From contig JAWNZC010000106.1 of assembly GCA_035771165.1 (NCBI GenBank), positions 1,054,001 through 1,118,000 of the forward strand: DNA of 64,000 nt, given 5' to 3'. This document shows, piece after piece, positions 2,535 through 56,443 of this stretch. Under the pieces are notes generated by a model that saw only the letters and a list, made by a program, of their open reading frames with translations, did no database searches and was not told the origin of the DNA. Source of the stretch: Paragorgia papillata. Lineage: Eukaryota > Cnidaria > Anthozoa > Scleralcyonacea > Coralliidae. The first letter of the stretch is position 1; each line of letters opens with the position of its first letter. The position numbers and the translations under genes were made by a program.

Positions 2535-5500
2535 AAGTATTTTGAAGCTACAGAATTTTCTGATCGGTAGATGGGAAATCCGAAAACACCGTTGGATTCC
2601 GTATAAAATTCTGCATCTGGCAATATGAAAATCCCCTTTTCAATTAAACTGATTAATTTGACTCAAGTCCTAAGATAATTTTTCTGTTTACGCGCGCTAA
2701 AGTGCATGACGTTTTTAAATATAGTGCTACACAATCTTTTGACGCTACAAAATTTTCTGATCGGTAGATGGGAAATCCAGAAACACCGTTGGATTCCCCA
2801 TAACATTCTGCATCTGGCAATATGAAAATCCCCTTTTCAATTTTAAATTGATTAATTTGACTCAAGTCCTAAGATAATTTTTCTGTTTACGCGCGCTAAA
2901 GTGCATGACGTTTTTTAAATATAGTGCTACAACATCTTTTGACGCTACAAAATTTTCTGATCGGTAGATGGGAAATCCAGAAACACCGTTGGATTCCCCA
3001 TAACATTCTGCATCTGGCAATATGAAAATCCCCTTTTCAATTTTAAATTGATTAATTTGACTCAAGTCCTCAATCAATTTTTCTGTTTACGCGCGCTAAA
3101 GTGCATGACGTTTTTAAATATAGTGCTAAACAGTCTTGAAGCTACAGAATTTTCTGATCGGTAGATGGGAATCCGAAAACACCGTTGGATCCCCGATAAC
3201 ATTCTGCATCTGGCAATAGGAAAATCCCCTTTGCAATTTTAAATTGATTAATTTGACTCAAGTCCTAAGACAATTTTTCTGTGTACGCGCGCTAAAGTGC
3301 ATGACGTTTTTTAATATAGTGCTACAAAATCTTTTGACGCTACAAAATTTTCTGATCGGTAGATGGGAAATCCGAAAACACCGTTGGATTCCCCATAAAA
3401 TTCTGCATCTGCCAATATGAAAATCCCCTTTTCAATTTTAAATTGATTAATTTGACTCAAGTCCTAAAACAATTTTTCTGTTTACGCGCGCTAAAGTGCA
3501 GGAGGTATATAAATATAGTGCTACACAGTCTTTTGAAGCTACAACATTTTCTGATCGGTAGATGGGAAAGCCGAAAGTAACTTTGGATTCCCCATGAAAT
3601 TCTGCATCTGGCAATAGGAAAATCCCCTTTTCAATTTTAAATTGATTAATTTGACTCAAGTCCTAGATCAATTTTTCTGTTTAAGCGCGCTAAAGTGCAT
3701 GACGTATATAGATATAGTGCTACACAGTCTTTTGAAGCTACAGAATGTTCTGATCGGTAGATGGGAAATCCGAAAACACCGTTGGATTCCCCATAAAATT
3801 CTTCATCTGGCAATATGAAAATCCCCTTTTCAATTTTAAATTGATTAATTTGACTGAAGTCGTAAGACAATTTTTCTGTTTACGCGCGCTAAAGTGCATG
3901 ACGTTTTTAAATATAGTGCTACACAATCTTTTGACGCCACAAGAGTTTCTGATCGGTAGATGGGAAATCCGAAAACACCGTTGGATTCCCCATAAAATTC
4001 TTCATCTGGCAATATGAAAATCCCCATTGCAATTTTAAATTGATTAATTTGACTCGAGTCCTAAGACAATTTTTCTGTTTACGCGCGCTAAAGTGCATGG
4101 GGTTTTTAAATATAGTGCTACACAGTCTTTTGACGCTACAAAATTTTCTGATGGGTAGATGGGAAAGCCGAAAACACCGTTGGCTTCCCCATAAAATTCT
4201 GCATCTGACAATATGAAAATCCCCTTTGCAATTTTAAATTGATTAATTTGACTCAAGTCCTAGGACAATTTTTCTGTTTACCCGCGCTAAAGTGCATGAC
4301 GTTTTTAAATATAGTGCTACACAATCTTTTGACGCCACAAGAGTTTCTGATCGGTAGATGGGAAATCCGAAAACACCGTTGGATTCCCCATAAAATTCTG
4401 CATCTGGCAATATGAAAATCCCCTTTTCAATTTTAAATTGATTAATTTGACTCAAGTCCTAAGACAATTTTTCTGTTTACGCGCGCTAAAGTGCATGACG
4501 TTTTTAAATATAGTGCTACACAGTCTTTTGACGCTACAAAATTTTCTGATGGGTAGATGGGAAAGCCGAAAACACCGTTGGCTTCCCCATGAAATTCTGC
4601 ATCTGGCAATAGGAAAATCCCCTTTTCAATTTTAAATTGATTAATTTGACTCAAGTCGTAAGACAATTTTTCTGTTTACGCGCGCTAAAGTGCATGACGT
4701 TTTTAAATATAGTGCTACACAGTCTTTTGAAGCTACAACATTTTCTAATCGGTAGATGGGAAATCCGAAAGCACCTTTGGATTCCCCATAACATTCTGCA
4801 TCTGGCAATATGAAAATCTCCTTTTCAATTTTAAATTGATTAATTTGACTCAAGTCCTAAGACAATTTTTCTGTTTACGCGCGCTAAAGTGCATGACGTT
4901 TTTAAATATAGTGCTACACAATCTTTTGACGCTACAAAATTTTCTGATTGGTAGATGGGAAATCCGAAAACACCGTTGGATTCCCCATAAAATTCTGCAT
5001 CTGACAATATGAAAATCCCCTTTTCAATTTTAAATTGATTAATTTGACTCAAGTCGTAAGACAATTTTTCTGTTTACGCGCGCTAAAGTGCATGACGTTT
5101 TTAAATATAGTGCTACACAATGTTTTGACGCTACAAAATTTTCTGATCGGTAGATGGGAAATCCGAAAACACCGTTGGATTCCCCATAAAATTCTGCATC
5201 TGGCAATATGAAAATCCCCTTTTCAATTTTAAATTGATTAATTTGACTCAAGTCCTAAGACAATTTTTCTGTTTACGCGCGCTAAAGTGCATGACGTTTT
5301 TAAATATAGTGCTACAGTCTTTTGAAGCTACAGAATGTTCTGATCGGTAGATGGGAAATCCGAAAATACCGTTGGCTTCCCCATGAAATTCTGCATCTGG
5401 CAATAGGAAAATCCCTTTTTCAATTTTAAATTGATTAATTTGACTCAAGTCCTAAGACAATTTTTCTGTTTACGCGCGCTAAAGTGCATGACGTTTTTAA

Positions 5501-5973
5501 ATATAGTGCTACACAGTCTTGAAGCTACAGAATTTTCTGATCGGTAGGCGGGAAATCCTAAAACACCGTTGGATTCCCGATAAAATTCTGCATCTGCCAA
5601 TATGAAAAACCCCTTTTCGATTTTAAATTGATTAATTTGACTCAAGTCGTAAGACAATTTTTCTGTTTATGCGCGCTAAAGTGCATGACGTTTTTTAATA
5701 TAGTGCTACACAGTCTTTTGACGCTACAAAATTTTCTCAAATTCGGGTAGCCCGCCTCGCGGGCTTTCCAAATATATAAGTCTCGACGCCCGAGGCGCAA
5801 ATCGAATTTATGACCTTATTTGGGCTGCCACGCCCACAGTTTTGATGGGTAGATGGGAAATTCGAACACATCGTTGGATTCCCGATAAAATTCTGCATCT
5901 GGCAATATGAAAATCCCCTTTTCAATTTTCAATTGATTAATTTGACTCAAGTCCTAAATCAATTTTTCTGTTT
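2535..5973. repeat. 199-bp satellite array, block 1
   Basis: About 17 tandem copies of a 199-bp unit. Each has a GCGCGCTAAAGTGCATGACG box, the phrase GATCGGTAGATGGGAAATCC and an AATTTGACTCAAGTCCTAA end. Unit starts repeat every 199 bp (for example 4243, 4442, 4641, 4840, 5039). Most units contain a roughly 70-codon open stretch on the minus strand, but 199 is not a multiple of three and each stretch ends in a stop, so these are not one repeat protein. A second block of the same satellite flanks the other side of the transposase-like gene (11.9-14.7 kb). Confidence 0.92.
5738..5842. repeat. 105-bp insert inside a satellite unit
   Basis: One satellite unit is interrupted by foreign sequence that contains a GC-rich hairpin (AGCCCGC-CTC-GCGGGCT) and a TATATAAG box. 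The unit resumes at TGATGGGTAGATGGG. No ORF is present. Confidence 0.55.
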
Positions 5974-17934: not shown

Positions 17935-19021
17935 TTATTTAAAATAGTTAAAATTAACAGTAACATTTGTTCCTGTTGCAAACGCTCCCGGTTGAAAGTT
18001 GACGGTTTCCCTGTTTTGAGTTGCAAAGTTCTGCGTTAACAGAGGAGAGGTTGGGCCATTCACATTTCTTGTTTCAGCTACTTCACTGCTAACAGCCGTC
18101 GAACAGAAATCGCTTAGAATAGCAGACATTTCTCTCTGTTTCGGCTCTGACAAGCGCGTGGAGTAAGCTCGAATACTTGTCTCAGATTTGTGTCCGGAGA
18201 CTCGCATTATGTGCCTTGCTTCGAAGACTTCATCCAAAACAGTGACAGCAGTTGCTCGGATGCAATGATTTGTGTATGGTTTTGACAAGCCTGCTCTTTC
18301 TGAAATTGTGTTCATAAGTGAACCCAATGTATTCTTTCCCAAAGGAGATTTGCAATACCAAATCGATTCGTCTTCGTCAACAGTGTCCTTTGGCCTTTGC
18401 CACAGCCAAGAAAGGTCGGGGTTGAGCTTCGATAGGTACAATTCGTAGGCACTCACTGGACAAAAAGGACTACCTGCTCTTTCATATATTCTTCCGTCGC
18501 CTGTAGAATCGCTTGAGTCGCCGTTTTCGCGGTGATTCTTGTCCGACTCGTCCAGTGCTTGATAGACATACCATCGTCCAGACCCATCAACTTTCACCAA
18601 GAACGATTGTTTAGTTTGAAGACGAAGGTTTTCCCTTCGTCTTCGAATAAGGTGGAACATGATATCAAACCATACCTTGAGTTGACGTTTTTGCGGTGAG
18701 GAAGTGTCAAGCCATGCATATAGCTTTTCAAGATCTTCTTTAGTAATACAATCGTGGTGGTCGACCTTTGCCAGCCCTTGTCTTTTCAGTTCCACAACTG
18801 TTGCTTCATAGACTAGATTAGACGATTGAAAAACACTGTCTACAATAAGGTTTATTTGCTTCTCACTCTTCATATACCTTGTAAGTCCAAACCGTATATT
18901 CTGTAAAGTATTTTTCTTGTAAGATTCTCCATTTTTCTTTCTGGTGTTGGGGTAAAAGTCTGCGAGGAGTTGGTTGAGATTTTCCTTCGGCAAGTTTTCA
19001 AAGTCTGTTTCGATGTTTATC
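17935..19021 (-). pseudogene. Crypton-type tyrosine recombinase, C-terminal part
   Basis: About 360 codons encoding the core-binding segment (LPKENLNQLLADFY, KKNTLQNIRFGLTRYM) and catalytic domain of a Crypton/DUF3504-type tyrosine recombinase. Visible catalytic landmarks are the Arg-rich FHLIRRRRENLR, the HxxR box (NHCIRATAV), the GH box (VSGHKSETSIRAY) and the nucleophilic Tyr nearby. The gene is interrupted after position 19022 by a 2.99-kb insertion; the first part of the protein lies at 22013-22230. The residues upstream of 19022 in this frame come from the inserted element's end, not from the recombinase. The break is a clean insertion, so the host element was intact here when hit. Confidence 0.88.
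19016..19021. other. Target-site duplication, left (TTTATC)
   Basis: TTTATC directly precedes the AGTAGATGACC end of the insertion; the same six bases follow its other end at 22013-22018. Confidence 0.88.
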
Positions 19022-19075
19022 AGTAGATGACCCCCATCCACCGTCCAAAGGGATGCCGCCTCATTAATATTCAGC

Positions 19076-19109
19076 ATGACGAACGCATGACGAACGCATG
19101 ACGAACGGA
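19076..19109. repeat. 11-bp subterminal repeats, left end
   Basis: Three copies of CATGACGAACG just inside the left inverted repeat. The right end has an equivalent array of CATGACTCACG-type repeats at 21898-21957. Confidence 0.75.
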
Positions 19110-19166
19110 GTAACAGAATAATAGGACATGTTTGGACAAGACTGGGATAATTAGTGCGCATGAAGC

Positions 19167-19174
19167 TATATAAG
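19167..19174 (+). promoter_or_regulatory. TATA box TATATAAG
   Basis: Consensus TATATAAG about 146 bp upstream of the start codon at 19313, with a GC-containing flank. It is the likely promoter of the small gene carried by the inserted element. Confidence 0.5.
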
Positions 19175-19312
19175 CTCGGAGCTGAGCTATAATCACTACG
19201 ATGTTAGGATTACACCTGGTCTGGTCGGCTAAGTTCGTTTGGCGATTCTACACTTGTTCGAGACTTTAGAGAAGGATTGGAACGTTTGTTGAAAGCCGTT
19301 TAGAACTGAGAC

Positions 19313-19807
19313 ATGAATACTCGACGATCTAGAAACCGTAAATGTGAAGCCTGGGGAAATCAAGTACATGTCGATGAAGTGTCCATTGTTGAATACCAAA
19401 AGCTGTTTCCATTAATAGAGACCATATACACAGACGCCATCGCCACTGAAATCGATAAATTATGCGAGGAAAAATGTTGTGGTTGTAAGATTGATCACCC
19501 CAATCAGTGCCAGCATGATTGCCTCATGATGACCGAGGAAGAAAGATGGGAGTTGTACTGTAAAGATGCCATTGCATTTGTAAACGATAAACGATTAATT
19601 TGGGACGAGTTTATTGAAGCGACAAGAGTGCTAAAGATCAGGTGTCATAAAGACGCTCTTGAACGTTTAAGACAATTAGAAAACACGTCAGAGTCGATAT
19701 TGTATGTAGTGTGGCAATTATATAACAATGCGGAGAATCCGGAAATGAAATGTATTCTAGGATATCTTCTTACTGGAGAGAAAGTAATAAATAGTTTTCT
19801 TGTATAA
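19313..19807 (+). CDS. Small Cys-rich protein of the inserted element
   Basis: Complete 164-codon ORF from ATG (ACATGAAT) to TAA. The N-terminus is basic (MNTRRSRNRK). A Cys/His cluster follows (CEEKCCGCKIDHPNQCQHDC, residues about 51-70), which could bind zinc, and then a helical acidic/basic C-terminal half. I do not recognise a named family; small proteins with a similar CxxCxxDHPxQxxHxC pattern are, from memory, common in uncharacterised animal Polinton-like loci, which is weak support. It is the only intact gene in the 2.99-kb element and has its own TATA box. Confidence 0.65.
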   Translation: MNTRRSRNRKCEAWGNQVHVDEVSIVEYQKLFPLIETIYTDAIATEIDKLCEEKCCGCKIDHPNQCQHDCLMMTEEERWELYCKDAIAFVNDKRLIWDEFIEATRVLKIRCHKDALERLRQLENTSESILYVVWQLYNNAENPEMKCILGYLLTGEKVINSFLV

Positions 19808-19977
19808 ATGTTGTGTTTTCTCTTATATAAGGCTAATAGTTGTTGAGCAATACGTTCCATTTTTTGATCGGAGGTATACATAGCGTTCAAGACAGGCGAC
19901 TGCTGATAAGATTGTTTCGTAAAATAAGACCTCAAAACAACGTTTTCTCCAGGTAAAACTTTAGTCTTGTTGATCAT
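19808..19977 (-). pseudogene. Truncated ORF abutting the pyrimidine arm
   Basis: Minus-strand open stretch starting at 19977 (MINKTKVLPGENVVLRSYF), convergent with the small gene, entering from the repeat arm. It appears to be the tail of a larger lost gene of the parent element. No family recognised. Confidence 0.35.
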
Positions 19978-20720
19978 CCTCTTATCCTCCTTATCTTCCT
20001 CTTATCTTCCTCTTATCTTCGATTTATCTTCCTTATCTTCCTGTTATCTTCCTGTTATCTTCCTTTTATCTTCCTTTTATCTTCCTTTTATCTTCCTGTT
20101 ATCTTCCCTTTATCTTCCACTTATCTTCCTCTTATCTTCCTTGTCTTCCTCTTATCTTCCTCTTATCTTCCTGTTATCTTCCTGTTATCTTCCTTTTATC
20201 TTCCTCATCTTCCTGTTATCTTCCCATTATCTTCCCTTTATCTTCCCCTTATCTTCCTCTTATCTTCCTCTTATCTTCCTTATCTTCCTCTTATCTTCCT
20301 TATCTCTTCCTCTTATCTTCCTCTTATCTGCCTTATCTTTCTCTTCTCTTCTCTTCTCTTCCTTATCTTCCTCTTATCTTCCTCTTATCTTCCTCTTATC
20401 TTCCTCTTATCTTCCTCTATTCTTCCTGTTTTCTTCCTCTTATCTTCCTCTTCTCTTCCTTATCTTTCTCTTCTCTTCTCTTCCTTATCTTTCCCTTTAT
20501 CTTCCTCTTATCTTTCCCTTTATCTCCCTCTTATCTTCCTCTATTCTTCCTGTTTTCTTCCTCTTATCTTCCTCTTATCTTCGTTATATTTCTCTTATCT
20601 TTCTCTTATCTTCCTCTTATCTTCCTGTTATCTTTCTCTTATCTTTCTTCCCTTCCCTTTATCTTCTTTTTACCCTCCTTATCTTTCTTATCTTTCTCTT
20701 ATCGGCCTTGTTTCCCCAAT
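19978..20720. repeat. Pyrimidine arm, CTTATCTTCCT tandem repeats
   Basis: About 740 bp of nearly pure C/T tandem repeats with an 11-12-bp period. It forms an inverted pair with the purine arm at 21180-21570. The open frame of about 284 codons across it is a by-product of the low-complexity sequence. Confidence 0.9.
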
Positions 20721-21179
20721 TTTCAGTCCCAGACCCCTCAAGGATATCTGTCACAAATTCAAAATATATAAACATGCTCTGGTGGAGTTCAACCATTTGC
20801 AACCTTACTTTCATTGAGTGATGTTTAACAATGAACAGAGAGCATTTCTTCAGTTTTTGTGGTGATGGAAACACTTAGCCCTTACCAGGACGATCTACAC
20901 ATTTTGGTTGATCCCCGACGAGGTAGTGGTAGTGCATTTGCCAAAAATTATGCGCACACTCGCATATACACCGAACTTGCTCAGGGCTCGCAGACTCCAA
21001 AACAACTCGCTGTTGTACGATTTTGAGAGACACAAAAACTGAAGAAATGCTCTCTGTTCGTTGTTAAAGATCACTCAATGAAAGTAAGGTTGCAAATGGT
21101 TGAAGTCCACCAGAGCATGTTTATATATTTTGAATTTGTGACAGATATCCTTGAGCGGTCTGGGACTGAAAATTGGGGA
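20721..21179. repeat. Unique inverted arms and loop of the inner palindrome
   Basis: 20717-20862 pairs with 21027-21180 (for example CCAATTTTCAGTCCCAGAC with its complement, and AGAGAGCATTTCTTCAG with its complement). The loop of about 165 bp is at 20863-21026. Arms differ at a few positions. Confidence 0.85.
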
Positions 21180-21570
21180 AATAAGGCCGATAAGAGAAAG
21201 ATAAGAAAGATAAAAGGAAGATAAGGAGGGTAAAACCAAGATAAAGGGAAGGGAAGGAAGATAAGAGAAAGATAAGAACAAGATAAGAGGAAGATAAGAG
21301 AAAGATAAGAGAAAGATAAGGAAGATAAGAGGAAGATAAGACGAAGAAAAGAGGAAGAATAGAGGAAGATAAGAGGAAGATAAGAGGAAGATAAGAGGAA
21401 GATAAAGGGAAAGATAAGAGGAAGAGAAGGAAGAGAAGAGAAAGATAAGGAAGATAAGAGGAAGAATAGAGGAAGAAAAGAGGAAGAATAGAGGAAGATA
21501 AGAGGAAGATAAGAGGAAGATAAAGGGAAAGATAAGAGGAAGATAAGGAAAGAGAAGAGAAGATAAATAA
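21180..21570. repeat. Purine arm, AGGAAGATAAG tandem repeats
   Basis: Complement of the pyrimidine arm, shorter by about half, so the tandem repeat number has diverged between arms. Confidence 0.9.
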
Positions 21571-21629
21571 TTAATCCTTAGCGCTTAATCTTCTTAACCT
21601 TAGCAACATTAACAAGATGCTTGACGACG

Positions 21630-21845
21630 TTAATAAAATAGCCGAGTCATGCGTTTAACCCCTGACAGTTTATATTCTGGCAAACCCCTGTGAAGAAAGT
21701 GTTTCAATGTCTTTCGAACAGCTTGCCGAACGGTTTCTTCATTCAAGGCATCGTTTACTCTATAAACTAAAGCCAAATAAGCGACAATTCGGCACATATC
21801 TCCTAGCTTATCACACTTAATATGATATTCATGAATGCTATTAAT
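21630..21845 (-). pseudogene. C-terminal fragment of an element gene
   Basis: Seventy-one sense codons ending at TAA (21630), with well-formed helical content (CDKLGDMCRIVAYLALVYR, EETVRQAVRKTLKHFL). There is no start codon: it opens after an in-frame TGA at 21846. Either a last exon (AG acceptor TTAATAG at about 21839) or a truncated gene. It lies just inside the right end of the inserted element and points inward. Confidence 0.45.
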
Positions 21846-22012
21846 TCAAGTCTATACCTTATCTCTACCAACTATCCCAATCTTGCCCAATCATGTCACA
21901 GGCGTGAGTCATTCGTGAGTCATGCGTGAGTCATTCGTGAGTCATGTGTGAGTCATGCTGAATATTAATGAGGCGGCATCCCTTTGATACACTGGATGGG
22001 GGGTCATCTACT

Positions 22013-22018
22013 TTTATC
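22013..22018. other. Target-site duplication, right (TTTATC)
   Basis: Second copy of the six-base target next to CATCTACT. Removing the element and one copy rejoins the recombinase frame without a base gained or lost. Confidence 0.88.
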
Positions 22019-22230
22019 TCCAAGCAAAAGGCCCTTAAAACAGCCACGGCGTTCTTAGTTGACGATTTAGTGCTCGATGAGTCTTTGTTTCTGACCAGGT
22101 CTTCTATGTCTCCTCTTGAGCGGCAAGCAAAACGCTTACTTACAGGCTCCATTACGATTTCATCTTGGTTTAACTTTAATACTTTTGAAGCGGGAAGCTC
22201 GAAATCTTTCGCAATACTCGAAGAGTCCAA
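22013..22230 (-). pseudogene. Crypton-type recombinase, N-terminal part
   Basis: Minus-strand frame encoding a Lys/Ser-rich leader and the start of the core-binding domain (TKNAVAVLRAFCLEI), where Crypton recombinases have an NTxWAVRVFxEW-type helix. It runs up to the insertion site and continues, after removal of the element, at 19021 with the residues NIETDFENLPK. There is no clear ATG: upstream a TGA closes the frame near 22260, so it probably begins at a splice acceptor (GCATCAG). Confidence 0.75.
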
Positions 22231-22284
22231 AGTTCTTGATCTGATGCAATAATAATTGTGTATTCACGTGAACAACGCATGATT

Positions 22285-22392
22285 AAAGCTGACGTCAGAG
22301 GAAAACATTGCACTGTTTCCCTCTTCATTGTTGACGTCAGAGGGAAACAGTGCAATGTTTCCCTCGGCAGAAAGAAACATTGAGTTTGTTGA
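22285..22392. promoter_or_regulatory. Palindrome with two CRE-like sites
   Basis: Two TGACGTCAGAGG motifs (CREB/ATF-type TGACGTCA) flank an inverted pair GGAAAACATTGCACTGTTTCC / GGAAACAGTGCAATGTTTCC. It lies upstream of the Crypton N-terminal part. Either a promoter element or the left-end palindrome of the Crypton element. Confidence 0.45.
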
Positions 22393-22559
22393 ACAACACG
22401 TGACCATGATTTGACCAATAAGATTTCATCTTTGGCAAAGGAAAATCTATGGTATATAACAACTTCTGTTAAATGTTTCACTCAGAAGCATATTTTACAT
22501 GTTATGATACACTGATATTTTGCGAAATAAACTGTACATTGGTGGTGTGCATTTATCCC

Positions 22560-27257: not shown

Positions 27258-28637
27258 AGGTAGCCTCACATTCGGCCTCGGATTCGGCCTCGGATTCAGC
27301 CTCGGATTCGCAAAGCAAATATTTCACCTTAAATAATTCCCTCAATAATCAACCGATCGGCACACACGATGCACCAAATTAAAGCTTATCATTCTATCTT
27401 TCTGGCCCAATATTAATGGCGTTCGTTTGAACAATTTGTTGAGGAAAAAAATAACCATTTAATATAAAGTATTCACTTTTTAGGTAAACAAATAGATCAA
27501 ATTCGCCGGGACGGCTTTGGGGGGGAAAATTCGATGGCTTCCCTTACTTTTTAATGCCCTTGCTATACATCAAAATGAAGCTCATTCTATCGTCTCGCTG
27601 GCCCAAGAAAAACTAGAAGTGGCCCAGATCTGGTTCAAGAGTTGTTCGCTTTTAAAGCAAGAAGCCCAAACTGTCAATTACATCGCGCCGGAAACAGAAA
27701 TCTTTATTAATTGTAGTTCCGAACATAGTCTTTGGGGGAAACATTGCGATGGCTTCTGTTAACTTTAACCAGCTTTCCTATATATAAAAATGAAGCTCAT
27801 TCTATCGTCTTTCTGGCCCAAGAAAAATTATAAGTGGCCCAGATCTGGTTTAAGAGTTATTCGCAAACGCCGAAACTGTGAAGGTAGCACCACATTCACT
27901 TGGGGGGGAAATTTCGATGGCTTATTCTAATTTTAACCGGCTTTCCTATATATCAAAATGAAGCTCATTCTATCCTCTTGCTGGCCCAAGAAAAATTAGA
28001 AGTGGCCCAGATCTGGTTCAAGAGTTATTCGCTTTTAAAGCGAGGCGCGCAAAATGTCAATTACAGCGCGCGATAAAAATAGAACACTTTATTATTAAAT
28101 TCGTCGGGATGGTCTTGGGGGAAAGATTTCGATGGCTTCTTTTAGATCTGGTTCAAGAGTTATTCGCATTTAAAGCGAGACGCCCCAACAGTCAATTTAT
28201 GCGCACTGGAAATAGATTTCTTTATTAAGTGTAGTTGCCGACATAGCCATTGGGGGGGGGGGGGGGGATTTCGATGGCTTCTGTTATTTTTTATCGGCTT
28301 TCCTCTATATCAAAATGAAGCTCATTCTATCGTCTTGCTGGCCCAAGAAAAATTATAAGTGGCCCAGATCTGGTTTAAGAGCTATTCGCTTTTAAATCGA
28401 GACGCACATACTGTTAATTACACAGCGCGCTAAAAATAGAACACTTTATTATTAAATTCGTCGGGATGGTCTTGGGGGAAAGATTTCGATGGCTTCTTTA
28501 AATTGTAATCGGCTTTCCTATATATCAAATTGAAGCTCATTCTACCGTCTTGCTGGCCCAAGAAAAATTAGAGATCTGGTTCAAGAGTTATTCGCTTTCA
28601 AAGCGAGAAGCCCAAACTGTCAATTACAGCGCGCCGG

Positions 28638-28862
28638 AACTCATACTTCAAGGAAAATTTTAATGAAAAAAAAATTGGGGGTCACCAAAATTTTTTCCGA
28701 ATTAAATTAGTTTGAAGGGTAATTGGCAGCCCTTTTGAAACGTCATTGTTGCCATAGCAACAACTGTTGCAATTTATTTGGATGCATAAGATTTAATCAC
28801 GTGTTTTGGACTCTCAAACTTGTATTTTCCATTTTTCAAGAAACTGTATGGAGCCACCTTAA
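28638..28862. mobile_element. Half copy of the TTAA MITE in the foldback loop
   Basis: Matches 1541-1799 of the complete MITE (AAAAATTGGGGGTCACCAAA, GTTGCCATAGCAACAACTGT) and ends GGAGCCACCTTAA. It occupies the centre of the foldback element between the two arms, with the other half deleted. Confidence 0.75.
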
Positions 28863-30767
28863 TAAAGATTTCTATTTCCGGCGCGATGTAATAGCGAACA
28901 ACTCTTGAACCAGATCTGGGCCACTTCTAATTTTTCTTGGGCCAGCAAGAAGATAGATTTAGCTTCAATTTCATATATAGGGAAGCCTGTTAAAAATAAC
29001 CGAAGCCATCGAAATCTTTCTCCCAAAGGCTATGTCGTGAAATATAGTTAATAAAGTGTTCTATTTTTAGCGCGCTGTGTAATTGACAGTTTGGGCGTCT
29101 CACTTTAAAAGCGAATAACTGTTAAACCAGATTTGGGCCACTTCTAATTTTTCTTGGGCCAGCAACACGATAGAATGAGCTTCATTTTGATATATAGGAA
29201 AGCTGGTTAAAGTTAACAGAAGCCATCGAAATGTTTCCCCCAAAGACTATGTCGGCAACTACAATTAATAAATATTTCTGTTTCCGGCGCGATGTAATTG
29301 ACAGTTTGGGCTTCTTGCTTTAAAAGCGAACAATTCTTGAGCCAGATCTGGGCCACTTCTAATTTTTCTTGGGCCAGCAAGAGGATAGCATGAGCTTCAT
29401 TTTGATATATAGGAAAGCCAGTTAAAATTAAAAGAAGCCATCGAAATTTTTCCCCCAAGACCATCCCGACGAATTAAATAATGAAGTGTTCTATTTTTAG
29501 CGCGCTGTGTAATTAACAGTATGGGCGTCTCGCTTTAAAAGCGAATAACTCTTGAACCAGATCTGGGCCACTTCTAATTTTTCTTGGGCCAGCAAGAGGA
29601 TAGAATGAGCTTCATTTTCGTATATAGGAAAGCCGGTAAAAAATAACAGAATCCATCGAAATTTCCCCCCCAAGGGCTATGTCGGCAACTATACACTTAA
29701 TAAAGATTTCTATTTCCGGTGCGCGGAAATTGACAGTTTGGGCGTCTCGCTTTAAATGCGAATAACTCTTGAACCAGATATGGGCCACTTCTAATTTTTC
29801 TTGGGCCAGCAAGAGGATAGAAAGAGCTTCATTTTGATATAGAGCAAAGTCAGTTAAAAGTTATAGAAGGCATCGAAATTTTCGCCCCAAGGGCCACCCC
29901 GGCGACTATACATAATAAAGTGTTCAATTTCCGGCTCGCTGTGACAGTTCGGGCGTCTCGCTTTAAAAGCGAATAACTCTTTAACCAGATCTGGGCCACT
30001 TCTAATTTTTCTTGGGCCAGCACGAGGATAGAATAAGCTTCATTTTGATATATAGGAAAGCCAGTTAAAATTAAAAGAAGCCATCGAAATCTTTCCCCCA
30101 AGACCATCCCGACGAATTTAATAATAAAGTGTTCTATTTTTATCGCGCGCTGTAATTGACATTTTGGGCGCCTCGCTTTAAAAGCGAATAACTCTTGAAC
30201 CAGATCTGGGCCACTTCTAATTTTTCTTGGGCCAGCAAGAAGATAGAATGAGCTTCATTTTGATATTTCTTGGGCCAGCAAGAAGATAGAATGAGCTTCA
30301 TTTTGATATATATGAAAGCCGGTTAAAATTAAAAGAAGCTACCAAAATATTTCCCCCAAAGAGTCATGTCGGCTACAAGTGAATTTGGCTCGCTGTGCAA
30401 TTGACAGTTTTGGCGTCGCTCTTTAAAAGCTAAGATATCTTGAACCAGATCTGGGCCACTTCTAGTTTTTCTTGGGGCAGCGAGACGATAGAATGAGCTT
30501 CATTTTGATGTATAGCAAGGACATTAAAAAGTAAGGGAAGCCATCGAATTTTTTCCCCCAAAGCCGTCCCGGCGAATTTGATCTATTTGTTTACCTAAAA
30601 AGTGGATACTTTATATTAAATGGTTATTTTTTTCCTCAACAAATTGTTCAAACGAACGCCATTAATATTGGGCCAGAAAGATAGAATAATAAGCTTTAAT
30701 TTGGTGCATCGTGTGTGCCGATCGGTTGATTATTGAGGGAATTATTTAAGGTGAAATATTTGCTTTG

Positions 30768-31066
30768 CGAATCCGAGGCCGAATCCGAGGCCGAATCCGA
30801 GGCCGAATCCGAGGCCGAATCCGAGGCCGAATCCGAGGCCGAATCCGAGGCCGAATCCGAGGCCGAATCCGAGGCCGAATCCGAGGCCGAATCCGAGGCC
30901 GAATCCGAGGCCGAATCCGAGGCCGAATCCGAGGCCGAATCCGAGGCCGAATCCGAGGCCGAATCCGAGGCCGAATCCGAGGCCGAATCCGAGGCCGAAT
31001 CCGAGGCCGAATCCGAGGCCGAATCCGAGGCCGAATCCGAGGCCGAATCCGAGGCCGAATCCGAGG
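30768..31066. repeat. 12-bp minisatellite GAATCCGAGGCC, about 25 copies
   Basis: Perfect or near-perfect head-to-tail repeat inside the right arm of the foldback element. The left arm has only about three copies (27268-27310). Because the unit is a multiple of three and stop-free in several frames, it creates long spurious frames (SEAE, RIRG, SASD repeats) on both strands. Confidence 0.93.
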
Positions 31067-33813: not shown

Positions 33814-33851
<38 letters not shown>

Positions 33852-36800
33852 TGAGTTATGGTTCACGAAATGTTAGAGAGTGCTCAATACCATATAGATA
33901 GAGCAAAATACAAAGTATAAAGTATAGTTTTACCTTAAAGTCTTCGCTACCAGAGGTTTCACCCTAAACGGGATCATCAGGCGACTGGAAAATATCGGTT
34001 AGTGGGCTGCTTAAATGCGTTAGTTGGGGCGTGGGTGTGGGCGTCGAAACGTCCGGCGCATTCATTTGGAGCGTGGGTGTGGGCGTCGAAACGTTGCGCG
34101 CATTCCTTTGATTGTTTAGGTTGTTGATCCGAAATCTATTTTTGTGCCGACACGTCGAAACTATTTCTGATCTTTTGTTGAGTAAGAGTTGTTTGTCTGC
34201 CTTCATGATGAAAAGTTTTTCGTCCAAACATAAATTGCATCTTTTTGATCCTCCCGTGTAAGAAATTGAGTGTTTTAGTATAGACCAGGTTATGTCGAAA
34301 CTTTGGTTTTTTTCTTTTAGATTCCAAATGTATTTCGAAAGTTCCGTCTCATTTGAATACTTTTTATTCTGGAAAGATTTAGTATGGTTACGATATCGCT
34401 CTTTAAATGTACTTGCTGTCATGCCAATGTATTGCTTGGTGATGTTCGTGTTGCTTATGGAAATAGATGCCTTGTATACTATGTTGTTTGTCATGCATTG
34501 CCCACGTAGGGGGCAATTGTCCTTAATCCTGCAATTGCAACTGCTTGTAACTATGCTTCGTGGTTTGCTTTTCCTGATTGTGCGTGAATTATGTTTCGTG
34601 ATAATAGACTTGACGTTGTTCATGCAACTATAGCTAATCTTGACTGTGTTTCTGTTAAAAAGTTTGTGAAGCTTGTGTCCTGGTGGAAAGTGCTTGTCAA
34701 TAAGGCTAAGAAAGTTGCGTCCTATGTTTGTTTTGACATTTCTGTTAAATGGAGGGTTAAACCAGATGATATTGCGGCGTCTATTTCTGCGTGTTTGCTG
34801 TGGTGCTTCTTGTGTGTAGTTTAGCTCATGGTTGAAATTGCTGCGCCTTAATGCATCTTGGTAAATTGGTGCGGTTTGATGGAATGTCCGCTCGTCAGAC
34901 GAGAGGAGGGAAATGCGCTTGTTGATTGATGTAGGTAGCTGTCTTAAAATGCTTGGTGGGTGGTTTGATTGCTTGTTTATGTATAATGGATCGTCATTGG
35001 GCTTTCGAAAAGGTTTGTATTTTCCATTGCTTAGGTCGAAAGTGACGTCTAAGAAGTTTACTGAAATTAAATTTGCTTCTGCCGTGATTTTTAAGCCAAA
35101 CTGTTCGAAACTTTTGTGAAGATCTTTTCTTGTTTTGTCTGCCAATCGTGCGGTCTTATTTTTTAGTACTGCCAATCCGTCGTCTCTATATAGGCCAATA
35201 TTTTGGTTGCCAAACTTTTTCCCTAGGTCGTTTAGAATGAAAAGGCCTACTAGTTCGCATACTTCAGCGCCGTCATAGCTACCCATGTAGCTATTAAAGT
35301 AATTCTTGATAAAATCAACTCTAAGTTAAGGAACATTTTGAACGTAAATCAATGGAGAAGCACACAAGAAGTAATCGAATGGTTTGGCAACATTGAAGAG
35401 AAAAACAGACATACCTTCATTTCGTTTGACATTGTTAATTTCTACCCTTCAATTTCTGAAGACCTCCTGGACCAAGCATTATCTTGGGCCAGAAATTTGG
35501 CTATTATTACCGAAAGTGACATTTCAATTATAAAACACGCTAGAAAATCGCTCCTTTTCAACAACGAAAAACCGTGGATAAAAAAAGACAGCAACAGTTT
35601 ATTTGATGTTACCATGGGTAGCTATGACGGCGCTGAAGTATGCGAACTAGTAGGCCTTTTCATTCTAAACGACCTAGGGAAAAAGTTTGGCAACCAAAAT
35701 ATTGGCCTATATAGAGACGACGGATTGGCAGTACTAAAAAATAAGACCGCACGATTGGCAGACAAAACAAGAAAAGATCTTCACAAAAGTTTCGAACAGT
35801 TTGGCTTAAAAATCACGGCAGAAGCAAATTTAATTTCAGTAAACTTCTTAGACGTCACTTTCGACCTAAGCAATGGAAAATACAAACCTTTTCGAAAGCC
35901 CAATGACGATCCATTATACATAAACAAGCAATCAAACCACCCACCAAGCATTTTAAGACAGCTACCTACATCAATCAACAAGCGCATTTCCCTCCTCTCG
36001 TCTGACGAGCGGACATTCCATCAAACCGCACCAATTTACCAAGATGCATTAAGGCGCAGCAATTTCAACCATGAGCTAAACTACACACAAGAAGCACCAC
36101 AGCAAACACGCAGAAATAGACGCCGCAATATCATCTGGTTTAACCCTCCATTTAACAGAAATGTCAAAACAAACATAGGACGCAACTTTCTTAGCCTTAT
36201 TGACAAGCACTTTCCACCAGGACACAAGCTTCACAAACTTTTTAACAGAAACACAGTCAAGATTAGCTATAGTTGCATGAACAACGTCAAGTCTATTATC
36301 ACGAAACATAATTCACGCACAATCAGGAAAAGCAAACCACGAAGCATAGTTACAAGCAGTTGCAATTGCAGGATTAAGGACAATTGCCCCCTACGTGGGC
36401 AATGCATGACAAACAACATAGTATACAAGGCATCTATTTCCATAAGCAACACGAACATCACCAAGCAATACATTGGCATGACAGCAAGTACATTTAAAGA
36501 GCGATATCGTAACCATACTAAATCTTTCCAGAATAAAAAGTATTCAAATGAGACGGAACTTTCGAAATACATTTGGAATCTAAAAGAAAAAAACCAAAGT
36601 TTCGACATAACCTGGTCTATACTAAAACACTCAATTTCTTACACGGGAGGATCAAAAAGATGCAATTTATGTTTGGACGAAAAACTTTTCATCATGAAGG
36701 CAGACAAACAACTCTTACTCAACAAAAGATCAGAAATAGTTTCGACGTGTCGGCACAAAAATAGATTTCGGATCAACAACCTAAACAATCAAAGGAATGC

Positions 36801-39440
36801 GCGCAACGTTTCGACGCCCACACCCACGCTCCAAATGAATGCGCCGGACGTTTCGACGCCCACACCCACGCCCCAACTAACGCATTTAAGCAGCCCACTA
36901 ACCGATATTTTCCAGTCGCCTGATGATCCCGTTTAGGGTGAAACCTCTGGTAGCGAAGACTTTAAGGTAAAACTATACTTTATACTTTGTATTTTGCTCT
37001 ATCTATATGGTATTGAGCACTCTCTAACATTTCGTGAACCATAACTCACTTATATTCGCACCCGTATACCGGTTGTGCACTCTTGTTTACGTAGTTTTGT
37101 AGTTTTATAGTATTATATACCTTAAAATGCGAAAATTTCGGTTTGACCACTCACTGAAAAACATTCCAATACCACCACAAGATGCTTATTTGAAAGATTT
37201 GATCGAAAAAATTGAAAGCGTAATAAAACGTATGAGATGGAAAGCTCACTTTTTTCTTAATGGTGATAGAAACCCGTCAAAAAATAACCATTTCGGACTG
37301 CCTTCTAACAAAACACCTCCCACTGTTTTGGATTTCAAACCTTTCGAAGACGACTTAATAAAACTCATTGAAAACACCAAATTTCGGCATACGAGCAATC
37401 CATTTCAGGAATCTTTGGCAAACGATTTGAAGAAAATTAATTCGTCACCTAATATTTTCGTCTTCGCCGACAAAACTAGAAACATTTATGAAACCTCGCT
37501 CGACACATACAACAATCTTTTGCATGACAATATAACAAAAACATATAAACATGGATCAGAGGGCACCATAGAACAGATAGACAATGAACTGAAACACATT
37601 TCGAATAACTTGGGAATTGGCGACCGTATTGAACACATGAAAAAACGCGAAACATTCATTTCTCTCAAAGATCATAAGGATAATTTCGAAAACAACCCAA
37701 CATGCCGATTAATTAATCCTGCTAAAAGTGAGTCCGGAAAGCTCAGCAAAGTAATTCTTGATAAAATCAACTCTAAGTTAAGGAACATTTTGAACGTAAA
37801 TCAATGGAGAAGCACACAAGAAGTAATCGAATGGTTTGGCAACATTGAAGAGAAAAACAGACATACCTTCATTTCGTTTGACATTGTTAATTTCTACCCT
37901 TCAATTTCTGAAGACCTCCTGGACCAAGCATTATCTTGGGCCAGAAATTTGGCTATTATTACCGAAAGTGACATTTCAATTATAAAACACGCTAGAAAAT
38001 CGCTCCTTTTCAACAACGAAAAACCGTGGATAAAAAAAGACAGCAACAGTTTATTTGATGTTACCATGGGTAGCTATGACGGCGCTGAAGTATGCGAACT
38101 AGTAGGCCTTTTCATTCTAAACGACCTAGGGAAAAAGTTTGGCAACCAAAATATTGGCCTATATAGAGACGACGGATTGGCAGTACTAAAAAATAAGACC
38201 GCACGATTGGCAGACAAAACAAGAAAAGATCTTCACAAAAGTTTCGAACAGTTTGGCTTAAAAATCACGGCAGAAGCAAATTTAATTTCAGTAAACTTCT
38301 TAGACGTCACTTTCGACCTAAGCAATGGAAAATACAAACCTTTTCGAAAGCCCAATGACGATCCATTATACATAAACAAGCAATCAAACCACCCACCAAG
38401 CATTTTAAGACAGCTACCTACATCAATCAACAAGCGCATTTCCCTCCTCTCGTCTGACGAGCGGACATTCCATCAAACCGCACCAATTTACCAAGATGCA
38501 TTAAGGCGCAGCAATTTCAACCATGAGCTAAACTACACACAAGAAGCACCACAGCAAACACGCAGAAATAGACGCCGCAATATCATCTGGTTTAACCCTC
38601 CATTTAACAGAAATGTCAAAACAAACATAGGACGCAACTTTCTTAGCCTTATTGACAAGCACTTTCCACCAGGACACAAGCTTCACAAACTTTTTAACAG
38701 AAACACAGTCAAGATTAGCTATAGTTGCATGAACAACGTCAAGTCTATTATCACGAAACATAATTCACGCACAATCAGGAAAAGCAAACCACGAAGCATA
38801 GTTACAAGCAGTTGCAATTGCAGGATTAAGGACAATTGCCCCCTACGTGGGCAATGCATGACAAACAACATAGTATACAAGGCATCTATTTCCATAAGCA
38901 ACACGAACATCACCAAGCAATACATTGGCATGACAGCAAGTACATTTAAAGAGCGATATCGTAACCATACTAAATCTTTCCAGAATAAAAAGTATTCAAA
39001 TGAGACGGAACTTTCGAAATACATTTGGAATCTAAAAGAAAAAAAACCAAAGTTTCGACATAACCTGGTCTATACTAAAACACTCAATTTCTTACACGGG
39101 AGGATCAAAAAGATGCAATTTATGTTTGGACGAAAAACTTTTCATCATGAAGGCAGACAAACAACTCTTACTCAACAAAAGATCAGAAATAGTTTCGACG
39201 TGTCGGCACAAAAATAGATTTCGGATCAACAACCTAAACAATCAAAGGAATGCGCGCAACGTTTCGACGCCCACACCCACGCTCCAAATGAATGCGCCGG
39301 ACGTTTCGACGCCCACACCCACGCCCCAACTAACGCATTTAAGCAGCCCACTAACCGATATTTTCCAGTCGCCTGATGATCCCGTTTAGGGTGAAACCTC
39401 TGGTAGCGAAGACTTTAAGGTAAAACTATACTTTATACTT

Positions 39441-39494
<54 letters not shown>

Positions 39495-55600: not shown

Positions 55601-56443
55601 TTATAGTTACAACAGAAGAAGCTGAACACCTACTATCGAGTACAGACGTATTACCTCTGTCTTGCGAACGATATACAAATGTTTCTCCAGGAATGAGCTC
55701 AAGGCACTGGTCGTTTGCTTTAATGGCATCTTCTCTAAGAGGGATTAGTCTAACTTTATCCAAAGGGTCGCATTGCAACTCGCGACCTAAATAATGAATT
55801 AAAAAACGCGACCCAGGGGGAATATGACCATTTCTGACATCATCAAGGAGATGTAAAAGTTCTTGTTCGTTCTGTCGATATACTTTTGTCAGCTCCATAC
55901 TAAAATCAACACATTTATTCCACAGAACAGATCGAAAACAGTAGTCCTGTTTCTCACCGCCATCGGTGCTGACAGTGACAGGCTCAAGCTGATAAAAATC
56001 TCCACACAACATGATAATTGAATGCCACCAAATGGTCGAGAACTCTTTCTAACTCCACGTGCGATATAATCAAGCTTTTCGAACAGAGCACATCCAATCA
56101 TAGATATTTCGTCTATAACTAAAATTCTGCAGTCCATCCAACGCTTAACAGCTTCTTCGTTCGGAAGAACAGTGCCTAAGAGCTCGTGGGCTGATTTCGT
56201 TCCAGTGTTTATTCCAGCAAAGTAATGGAGAGTTGTTCCACAGACATTAACTGCTGCAATACCAGTTGAAGCGGTCACAAAACATCCTCCATGACCAGAT
56301 TCCCTCTCCACGATTTTCTTTAGCAAATACGACTTTCCACAGCCACCCTTTCCAGTTACGAATACACTGTATTTCAGGTCGACCAACTTTAAAATATTTT
56401 CCTGTTCGCAACTTAAAATATGCATAGATTGCTTCGAATTCAT
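52697..56443 (-). CDS. PIF1-type DNA helicase with long C-terminal extension
   Basis: Three exons with fully matching phases: 56443-54136, 53995-53779 and 53337-52697. Helicase landmarks in order: Walker A VFVTGKGGCGKSYLL, Walker B ILVIDEISMIG, LCGDFYQLEPV, KVYRQNE, then LCYGMTIHKSQATSF and QAYVALSRAETLSGLRVL. PIF1 helicases unwind DNA 5' to 3'. After the helicase core comes an extension of about 590 residues with no domain I recognise, including KYMGIGCIDVGVGGLHRKAC, a basic coiled coil, an acidic linker (exon 2) and a C-terminal region with LPKKFIHHCLKAQ. Exon 1 has three single- or double-base frame breaks (about 56020, 55490 and 54560). Start ATG is at 56443; it lies head-to-head with the shared promoter segment at 56.6 kb. 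Confidence 0.78.
54030..54053. repeat. G-rich run
   Basis: GGGGGTGGGGTGGGGGGGGG in the first PIF1 intron; potential G-quadruplex on the plus strand. Confidence 0.6.

Follow-up and report, generated by a model that had tools for sequence, protein, structure and literature searches.

We have identified in the genome of Paragorgia papillata an insert of 2,991 bp that is most probably a non-autonomous derivative of the Polinton/Maverick elements, forming a fold-back palindrome and mobilised in trans by a full Polinton. A probability of about 0.87 is assigned to this reading. The insert lies in a Crypton tyrosine recombinase gene within a stretch of 64,000 nucleotides, referred to here as the window (contig JAWNZC010000106.1, positions 1,054,001 to 1,118,000). 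It has AG...CT ends, is flanked by 6-bp duplications of its target, has an empty counterpart site elsewhere in the genome and is palindromic. Its ends are common to an element that bears a PolB polymerase and a match to the rve integrase family below the Pfam cut-off.

Insertion into the Crypton gene

The first-pass annotation of the window had described a 2.99-kb insertion in a Crypton gene with a 6-bp target site duplication (TSD) and AG...CT ends, and the present analysis bears this out. The element runs from AGTAGATGACCCCC to GGGGGGTCATCTACT, its ends being the inverted AG...CT, and TTTATC is present on both sides of it. The interrupted gene matches the Pfam families DUF3504 (6.4e-8) and Phage_integrase (9.9e-7). 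The features of the site are as follows.

17935..19021, minus strand: C-terminal part of the Crypton tyrosine recombinase gene split by the element (Pfam DUF3504, Phage_integrase)
19016..19021, no strand: TTTATC, 6-bp target duplication on the left side (target present once in the empty Crypton paralog)
19022..22012, no strand: the entire non-autonomous Polinton derivative, probable, 2,991 bp (ends, relatives, empty paralog)
22013..22018, no strand: TTTATC, target duplication on the right side (target present once in the empty Crypton paralog)
22013..22230, minus strand: N-terminal part of the interrupted Crypton gene (flank joining and empty paralog)

It had also been claimed that the Crypton frame rejoins when the element and one TTTATC are taken out. 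The frame is open after scripted joining of the flanks with both 6-mers retained, and by inspection it is still open with one 6-mer removed, since six bases make two codons. In the assembly searched (617.9 Mb, 473 contigs) a Crypton paralog (L046, C461:2659314 onward) aligns unbroken across the junction, with 96.9% identity over 1,670 columns, to the joined window flanks carrying a single 6-mer. The target in this paralog is AGAAAA and the window has GATAAA at the same place. The insertion and its borders are real, as the joined frame is open and the paralog is uninterrupted with a single target copy. An empty allele had been proposed as a check; the copy that reads through is a paralog.

A stretch of 244 bp upstream of the Crypton gene (22219-22462) is found at 94-97% in at least 38 further genomic places besides the empty Crypton copy, and is possibly a short repeat derived from a Crypton.

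Anatomy of the element

The element is composed of the following features, TIR standing for terminal inverted repeat.

19022..19080, plus strand: left TIR, strong part (AGTAGATGACCCCC...CATGA), with the same end motif in relatives
19074..19107, no strand: subterminal tandem repeat of 11 bp, (GCATGACGAAC)n, from repeat analysis
19313..19807, plus strand: P164, a 164-aa gene lying in the long TIR of relatives (all-helical model, conserved Cys/His cluster)
19780..19989, minus strand: C-terminal remnant of a finger-ATPase, antisense (42% identity to residues 233-307 of type B)
19973..20703, no strand: left minisatellite, 11-bp unit ATCTTCCTCTT, 68 copies
20344..20861, plus strand: left inner palindrome arm, 91.6% to the right arm
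20821..20921, plus strand: gene X fragments, residues 1-13 and 54-73
20862..21030, no strand: palindrome loop of 169 nt, consisting of two pieces of the Polinton gene X in opposite orientation
20926..21071, minus strand: gene X fragment, residues 1-49 of 105, in two frames
21031..21566, minus strand: right inner palindrome arm
21189..21566, no strand: right minisatellite, 11-bp unit GATAAGAGGAA, inverted counterpart of the left
21902..21958, no strand: subterminal tandem repeat of 11 bp, (GCGTGAGTCAT)n, from repeat analysis
21953..22012, minus strand: right TIR, strong part, from inverted-repeat alignment

The left TIR with P164 is followed by the antisense scrap of an ATPase tail, the 11-bp minisatellite and the gene X fragments, after which comes a mirror image without P164. 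The outermost 59/60 bases are inverted repeats that match almost perfectly, and the TIRs can be aligned locally, though more weakly, as far as about 300 bp (217 of 271 aligned columns identical). A 22-bp inner end motif, with up to three mismatches permitted, is present within the window solely at the two ends of the element; two matches were obtained in none of 100 shuffles. Identity is 91.6% between the inner arms and 80% between the outer repeats, for which reason the window copy looks older than the relatives L010 and L013 described below.

Gene X is a Polinton gene of 105 aa, a rearranged piece of which occupies the fold-back centre. Compared with gene X of the relatives, the centre follows one orientation, turns, runs for about 60 nt in the other orientation, skips about 118 nt and then continues. 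Such a turn together with such a skip would be expected from a fold-back strand switch in the course of replication.

Homology queries were taken from C9, a full-length relative described below. The PolB pieces and the rve pieces of C9 (tblastn), as well as its capsid-like and protease-like open reading frames (ORFs), had no match in the window element, and no polymerase, integrase or capsid gene was detected by them. The packaging ATPase is represented just by the 42% tail remnant, besides which the gene X pieces occur. As no PolB match is present, the element is classified as a derivative and not as a Polinton proper. The suggestion that it is non-autonomous agrees with these results, for it shares its ends with a full element and has none of the C9 genes queried. 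The claim of one intact gene needs correction: the last 13 or so residues of P164 differ from those of the relatives. The palindrome, the right arm without a copy of P164 and the size of the family are features beyond the earlier description.

Relatives with the same ends

A search of the genome with the element yielded 102 matches. Apart from the element itself, the top 39 all fall within positions 4-954 of the query (left end and the 164-aa gene) at 91-97%. The fetched relatives have a common end motif, AGTAG[A/G]T[A/G]ACCCC(n) and then AAAGGGATGCCGCC, in which as many as two substitutions were permitted. Exact 6-bp duplications flank 11 of the 12 elements with both ends read, the window element included; for the remaining fetched relatives one end or none was read. 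The duplications are TTTATC in the window, GACGTT (L009), CATGTG (L010), GGCGAT (L012), CTTAAG (L013), CCCGCG (L014), ATGGCC (L020/21), ATCATC (L022), CTTGTG (L027) and AACATG (C261, read by eye). That of L015, counted among the 11, is inside an AT repeat and ambiguous. The twelfth element, C9, has AACTAT and GACTAT, matching in 5 of 6 bases. A different duplication length, which would have spoken against the Polinton reading, was not found in these 12 elements.

A search for full-length relatives with the same ends had been proposed, and C9 is the full-size relative found. It is recovered in three separate pieces (L017-L019), has a length of about 21.7 kb and carries the end motif of the window element. 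Its PolB is found in two open pieces (PF03175, 5.4e-29 and 6.8e-9). The match to rve (PF00665, 3.2e-5, 24.6 bits) is under the Pfam cut-off of 32.6, and that to the A32-like ATPase (4.9e-3) is also under its cut-off. Further ORFs, which have no Pfam match, may by resemblance be capsid-like and adenain-like protease genes. The Walker A motif of the ATPase is altered to GTKTAKTT; with this and the PolB in separate open pieces C9 looks damaged. The Polinton/Maverick affinity that had been read from the 6-bp duplication and the AG...CT ends is supported by the PolB and the rve-like match (under the cut-off) of C9, these being found where another transposase class would have spoken against it.

When 14 stretches of relatives were queried for PolB, rve, capsid-like and protease-like sequences, two marginal matches resulted (E 3e-4 and 1e-3). 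At least 91 PolB loci akin to that of C9 are present in the genome, many with open frames of more than 1,000 aa, and at least 32 further loci of the PolB family were picked by eye, making 123 listed loci as lower bounds.

C261 (L043 and L044; C261:178500-199500) is a PolB-bearing element of about 12.3 kb by its ends, with the TSD AACATG. Each half contains a PolB, the two being inverted relative to each other, and similar PolB pairs are present on C311 and C236. At L011 (C354:5818600-5826200) the sequence just outside one TIR core recurs inverted just outside the other, as though L011 were part of a larger palindrome.

Palindromic architecture of the family

The fetched relatives are mostly without a polymerase and have long inverted repeats. 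L010 (9,799 bp, 99.4%) and L013 (9,585 bp, 98.8%) are reverse complements of themselves from end to end, and L009 has arms of 4.1 kb at 99.1%. Inverted repeats of 1.2-2.0 kb are present in L012 (99.0%), L014 (99.1%), L015 (94.0%) and L027 (99.7%), and one of just about 100 bp in L022. C261 was compared over 1.4 kb, where its arms agree at 99.5%. Each arm has the other as its best match in 9 of 13 elements (E009, E010, E011, E012, E013, E014, E015, E020 and C261).

The same layout is seen in the arrangement of genes. Among the 150 listed P164 matches, 136 after merging, 29 of the 30 pairs of neighbours (up to 12.5 kb apart) are convergent and one is direct. None of the 30 pairs encloses any of the 91 listed PolB loci, and none of the 29 convergent pairs any of the 32 further loci. 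Neighbouring PolB pairs are convergent in all three cases.

The P164 gene

The genome contains 155 matches to P164, of which 150 are listed. A single-sequence search gave 15 relatives, all below 1e-30, and a profile search 509 at E<=10, the best 120 of which are listed. A block C-x3-C-x-G-C-x3-H-P-[S/N]-Q-x2-H-x-C is strongly conserved, and this Cys/His block suggests a putative zinc binding function; in the wider set of 55 sequences the first Cys of the block is not among the 90%-conserved columns. The AlphaFold model is all-helical with a pLDDT of 82.5. It has no structural match at E<=0.001 in BFVD or PDB (best E 0.42 and 1.2), and the sequence has no match in Pfam, 0.036 at best in PHROGs and 0.16 at best among PDB sequences. 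Among the viral contigs searched, neither P164 nor its alignment has a relative, and the same holds for the TIR motif and the ATPase.

The pooled ratio of nonsynonymous to synonymous rates (dN/dS) of P164 is 0.35 (231 pairs, 22 intact copies). Counting each change once in the 18 distinct intact copies outside C9 and C211, 32 of 57 distinct changes are nonsynonymous (omega 0.34-0.50), which is fewer than under neutrality (p 8e-5, 0.001 and 0.007 with transition weights of 1, 2 and 4).

P164 lies within 20 kb of 7 of the 91 listed PolB loci. It was considered as a gene found only in satellites, that is, in polymerase-less palindromes dependent on helper Polintons. This is rejected, as C9 and C211 carry both P164 and PolB. 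Its exclusivity is also weakened outside this genome, where the longest contigs of P0002 (kin of P164) and P0138 (kin of the ATPase) are equal in length, 15,821 bases, and may be one and the same.

Relatives with a finger-ATPase

A C2H2 finger precedes the ATPase in L009, L010, L013, L020 and L026. In L010 this protein matches zf-C2H2 (4.7e-7) and Pox_A32 (5.6e-4, under its cut-off), and the ATPases of L010 and C9 share 82% identity where they align. The listed genome matches of the L010 ATPase number 142, of which 98 are at 92% identity or more and 44 below. The 98 copies represent about 64 places (98 minus 34 neighbour links). With respect to the 123 listed PolB loci none of the 98 starts within 10 kb and one within 20 kb. 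Neighbouring copies form 34 pairs, 33 of them divergent and hence palindromic, and 69 of the 98 are near full length, beginning no more than four residues from the start and having no stops. Five intact copies are under purifying selection (12 of 26 distinct changes nonsynonymous, omega 0.24-0.34, p 0.0004-0.005).

Another ATPase, type B, has 445 aa and matches Pox_A32 above the cut-off (2.5e-5). It has at least 96 genome matches, in 95 places after merging. Among the matches listed, one of the 95 is within 20 kb of the 91 PolB loci and none is within that distance of the other 32; a P164, among the copies entered in this comparison, is within 10 kb of just 9 of the 95. At L057 (C24:293000-296500) the start of a type B finger-ATPase faces a truncated second copy of its own tail. 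Next to it are gene X and another shared gene, and no core gene of C9 is found in those 3.5 kb.

The C2H2 pattern is absent from the 120 listed out of 251 ATPase homologs outside this genome. The fingered ATPases A, C320 and B do not form one clade among 67 rows (approximately unbiased test, p-AU 8e-7); a clade of A and C320 alone is not rejected (p-AU 0.41). On account of these two observations the finger was first considered as an adaptation of satellites. As a satellite-specific mark it is rejected: of the 44 lower-identity ATPases (79-80%, finger included) six start 2.8-4.8 kb from PolB, so that full Polintons of this host have the finger as well.

Origin of the element and alternative explanations

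The ancestors of the element would have been relatives with P164 inside long terminal inverted repeats. A replication error of the fold-back type (snap-back or strand-switch) inside gene X could have given rise to the present shape, with subsequent loss of P164 from the right arm. The integrase of a full Polinton, acting in trans, would then have joined the AG...CT ends to a staggered 6-bp cut in the Crypton gene, the repair of the gaps producing the TTTATC duplication. Polintons are described as replicating with a protein-primed polymerase and integrating by means of rve (PMC6431247, PMC11071308), and it is from this general knowledge that protein-primed replication and integration in trans are suggested for the window element.

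Several observations weigh against this explanation. The left end of L009 is AC instead of AG and the terminal motif is not found in L011. C9 itself looks damaged, with its imperfect duplication and its rve match below the cut-off. E022, E027, C9 and the window element have arms that are not each other's best match. The outer TIRs of the window element have drifted to 80%, so that its palindrome is less clear than those of the relatives. No excision or transposition has been observed.

A transposon of a different DDE class with 6-bp duplications, unrelated to Polintons, is scarcely credible. The element is itself without a transposase, and AG...CT ends with 6 bp are not unique by themselves; however, it has its ends and TIR core in common with the PolB-bearing C9 and C261, which already contradicts such an origin, and shares gene pieces with Polinton relatives. 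That the palindromes are artefacts of assembly from fold-back reads, which are known for long reads, is nearly as improbable. The flanks of L009, L010, L013 and L020/L021 differ on the two sides by the bases shown, their 6-bp duplications match and their arms differ by about 0.6-1.7%.

The two remaining alternatives concern the history of the family and are a weaker and a stronger form of the main reading. In the weaker form, to which an even chance is given, the palindromes are dead deletion derivatives, each arising from a separate error in the replication of a full Polinton, with passive amplification and no lineage of their own. The palindromic arrangement of PolB elements (the three convergent PolB pairs, the C261 arms) and the clear deletions in the window element are in accord with this, but the many near-identical, constrained ATPase copies in divergent pairs look more like one amplified lineage than a multitude of accidents. 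The palindromes may instead constitute a satellite lineage that perpetuates itself and keeps the packaging-type ATPase and P164 since helper Polintons replicate and package it, the window element being a decayed offshoot; this is considered possible, though doubtful. Somewhat more doubtful still is the bolder proposal that this host harbours recently amplified palindromic Polinton satellites, whose P164-type gene and zinc-finger ATPase would be kept under selection for copying and packaging by the helper. The number of high-identity ATPase copies, their distance from listed PolB, their divergent pairing and intact frames, the coding constraint on ATPase and P164 and the rarity of type B near listed PolB appear, from sequence comparison, to favour the ATPase-bearing palindromes as Polinton satellites. 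Against this, the ATPase could be a passenger and the constraint may date from full Polintons, before the loss of helper genes. Six fingered ATPases do lie close to PolB, the PolB loci and matches are those listed, so that distance from them is not proof of absence, and a virion or packaging role is a prediction from the genes.

Other repeats and genes in the window

The region 33845-39445 has a 440-aa ORF and its DNA three times, inverted and direct, the copies being 100% identical over 1,443 bp and 99.9% over 1,381 and 1,698 bp. Positions 37127-39214 have no Pfam match at 1e-3; by resemblance the region looks like a recent Penelope-type reverse-transcriptase element. At 2536-5737 a unit of about 198 bp is repeated in tandem, shifted copies being 92-93% identical. 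A piece of a PIF1-like helicase (55892-56443, PF05970 2e-27) may derive from a Helitron. Nested inverted repeats of 567 and 505 bp (89-91%) are found at 27263-30815.

Comparison with known systems

A literature search covering publications other than Repbase Reports found none on non-autonomous, miniature, satellite, defective or truncated Polintons, and almost nothing in print on Polinton parasites or defective genomes. Repbase Reports may contain entries for non-autonomous Polintons. In the present genome, full elements are accompanied by palindromes with PolB and by many near-identical palindromes that have conserved genes but no polymerase, which makes the question of such parasites and defective genomes testable.

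Polintons (Mavericks; Polintoviricetes, adintoviruses) are thought to be integrated viruses and are usually about 15-20 kb in size. The window element resembles them in the 6-bp target duplication, the AG...CT inverted ends and a PolB-bearing, rve-like relative with the same ends. It differs in its length of 3 kb, in having no detected PolB, integrase or capsid gene, in the fold-back palindrome and in belonging to a family with a coding gene in the TIR of the relatives.

Virophages and phage satellites, as generally understood, would be similar in their dependence on the replication and capsid of a larger element, a dependence proposed here for the palindromes; they are unlike the present family in that no capsid gene was found in the fetched mid-size elements. 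If the satellite proposal is true, these palindromes would represent a parasite of a virus-like transposon in a setting other than protists and giant viruses, and the palindrome would be its replication form.

Fold-back duplication of one end may be a route both to long coding TIRs and to small non-autonomous Polintons. The symmetric recombinants of adenovirus are snap-back defective genomes. Such genomes similarly have one genome end duplicated in inverted form around a short loop, whereas here the products are integrated in a host genome between target duplications, and one class of them has retained conserved genes. Snap-back defective genomes are also described for adeno-associated virus (AAV) in PMC8235507. 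Foldback/Galileo-type transposons likewise have very long, internally repetitive inverted repeats; they belong to another transposase class, whereas the ends of the present family are common to PolB-bearing elements.

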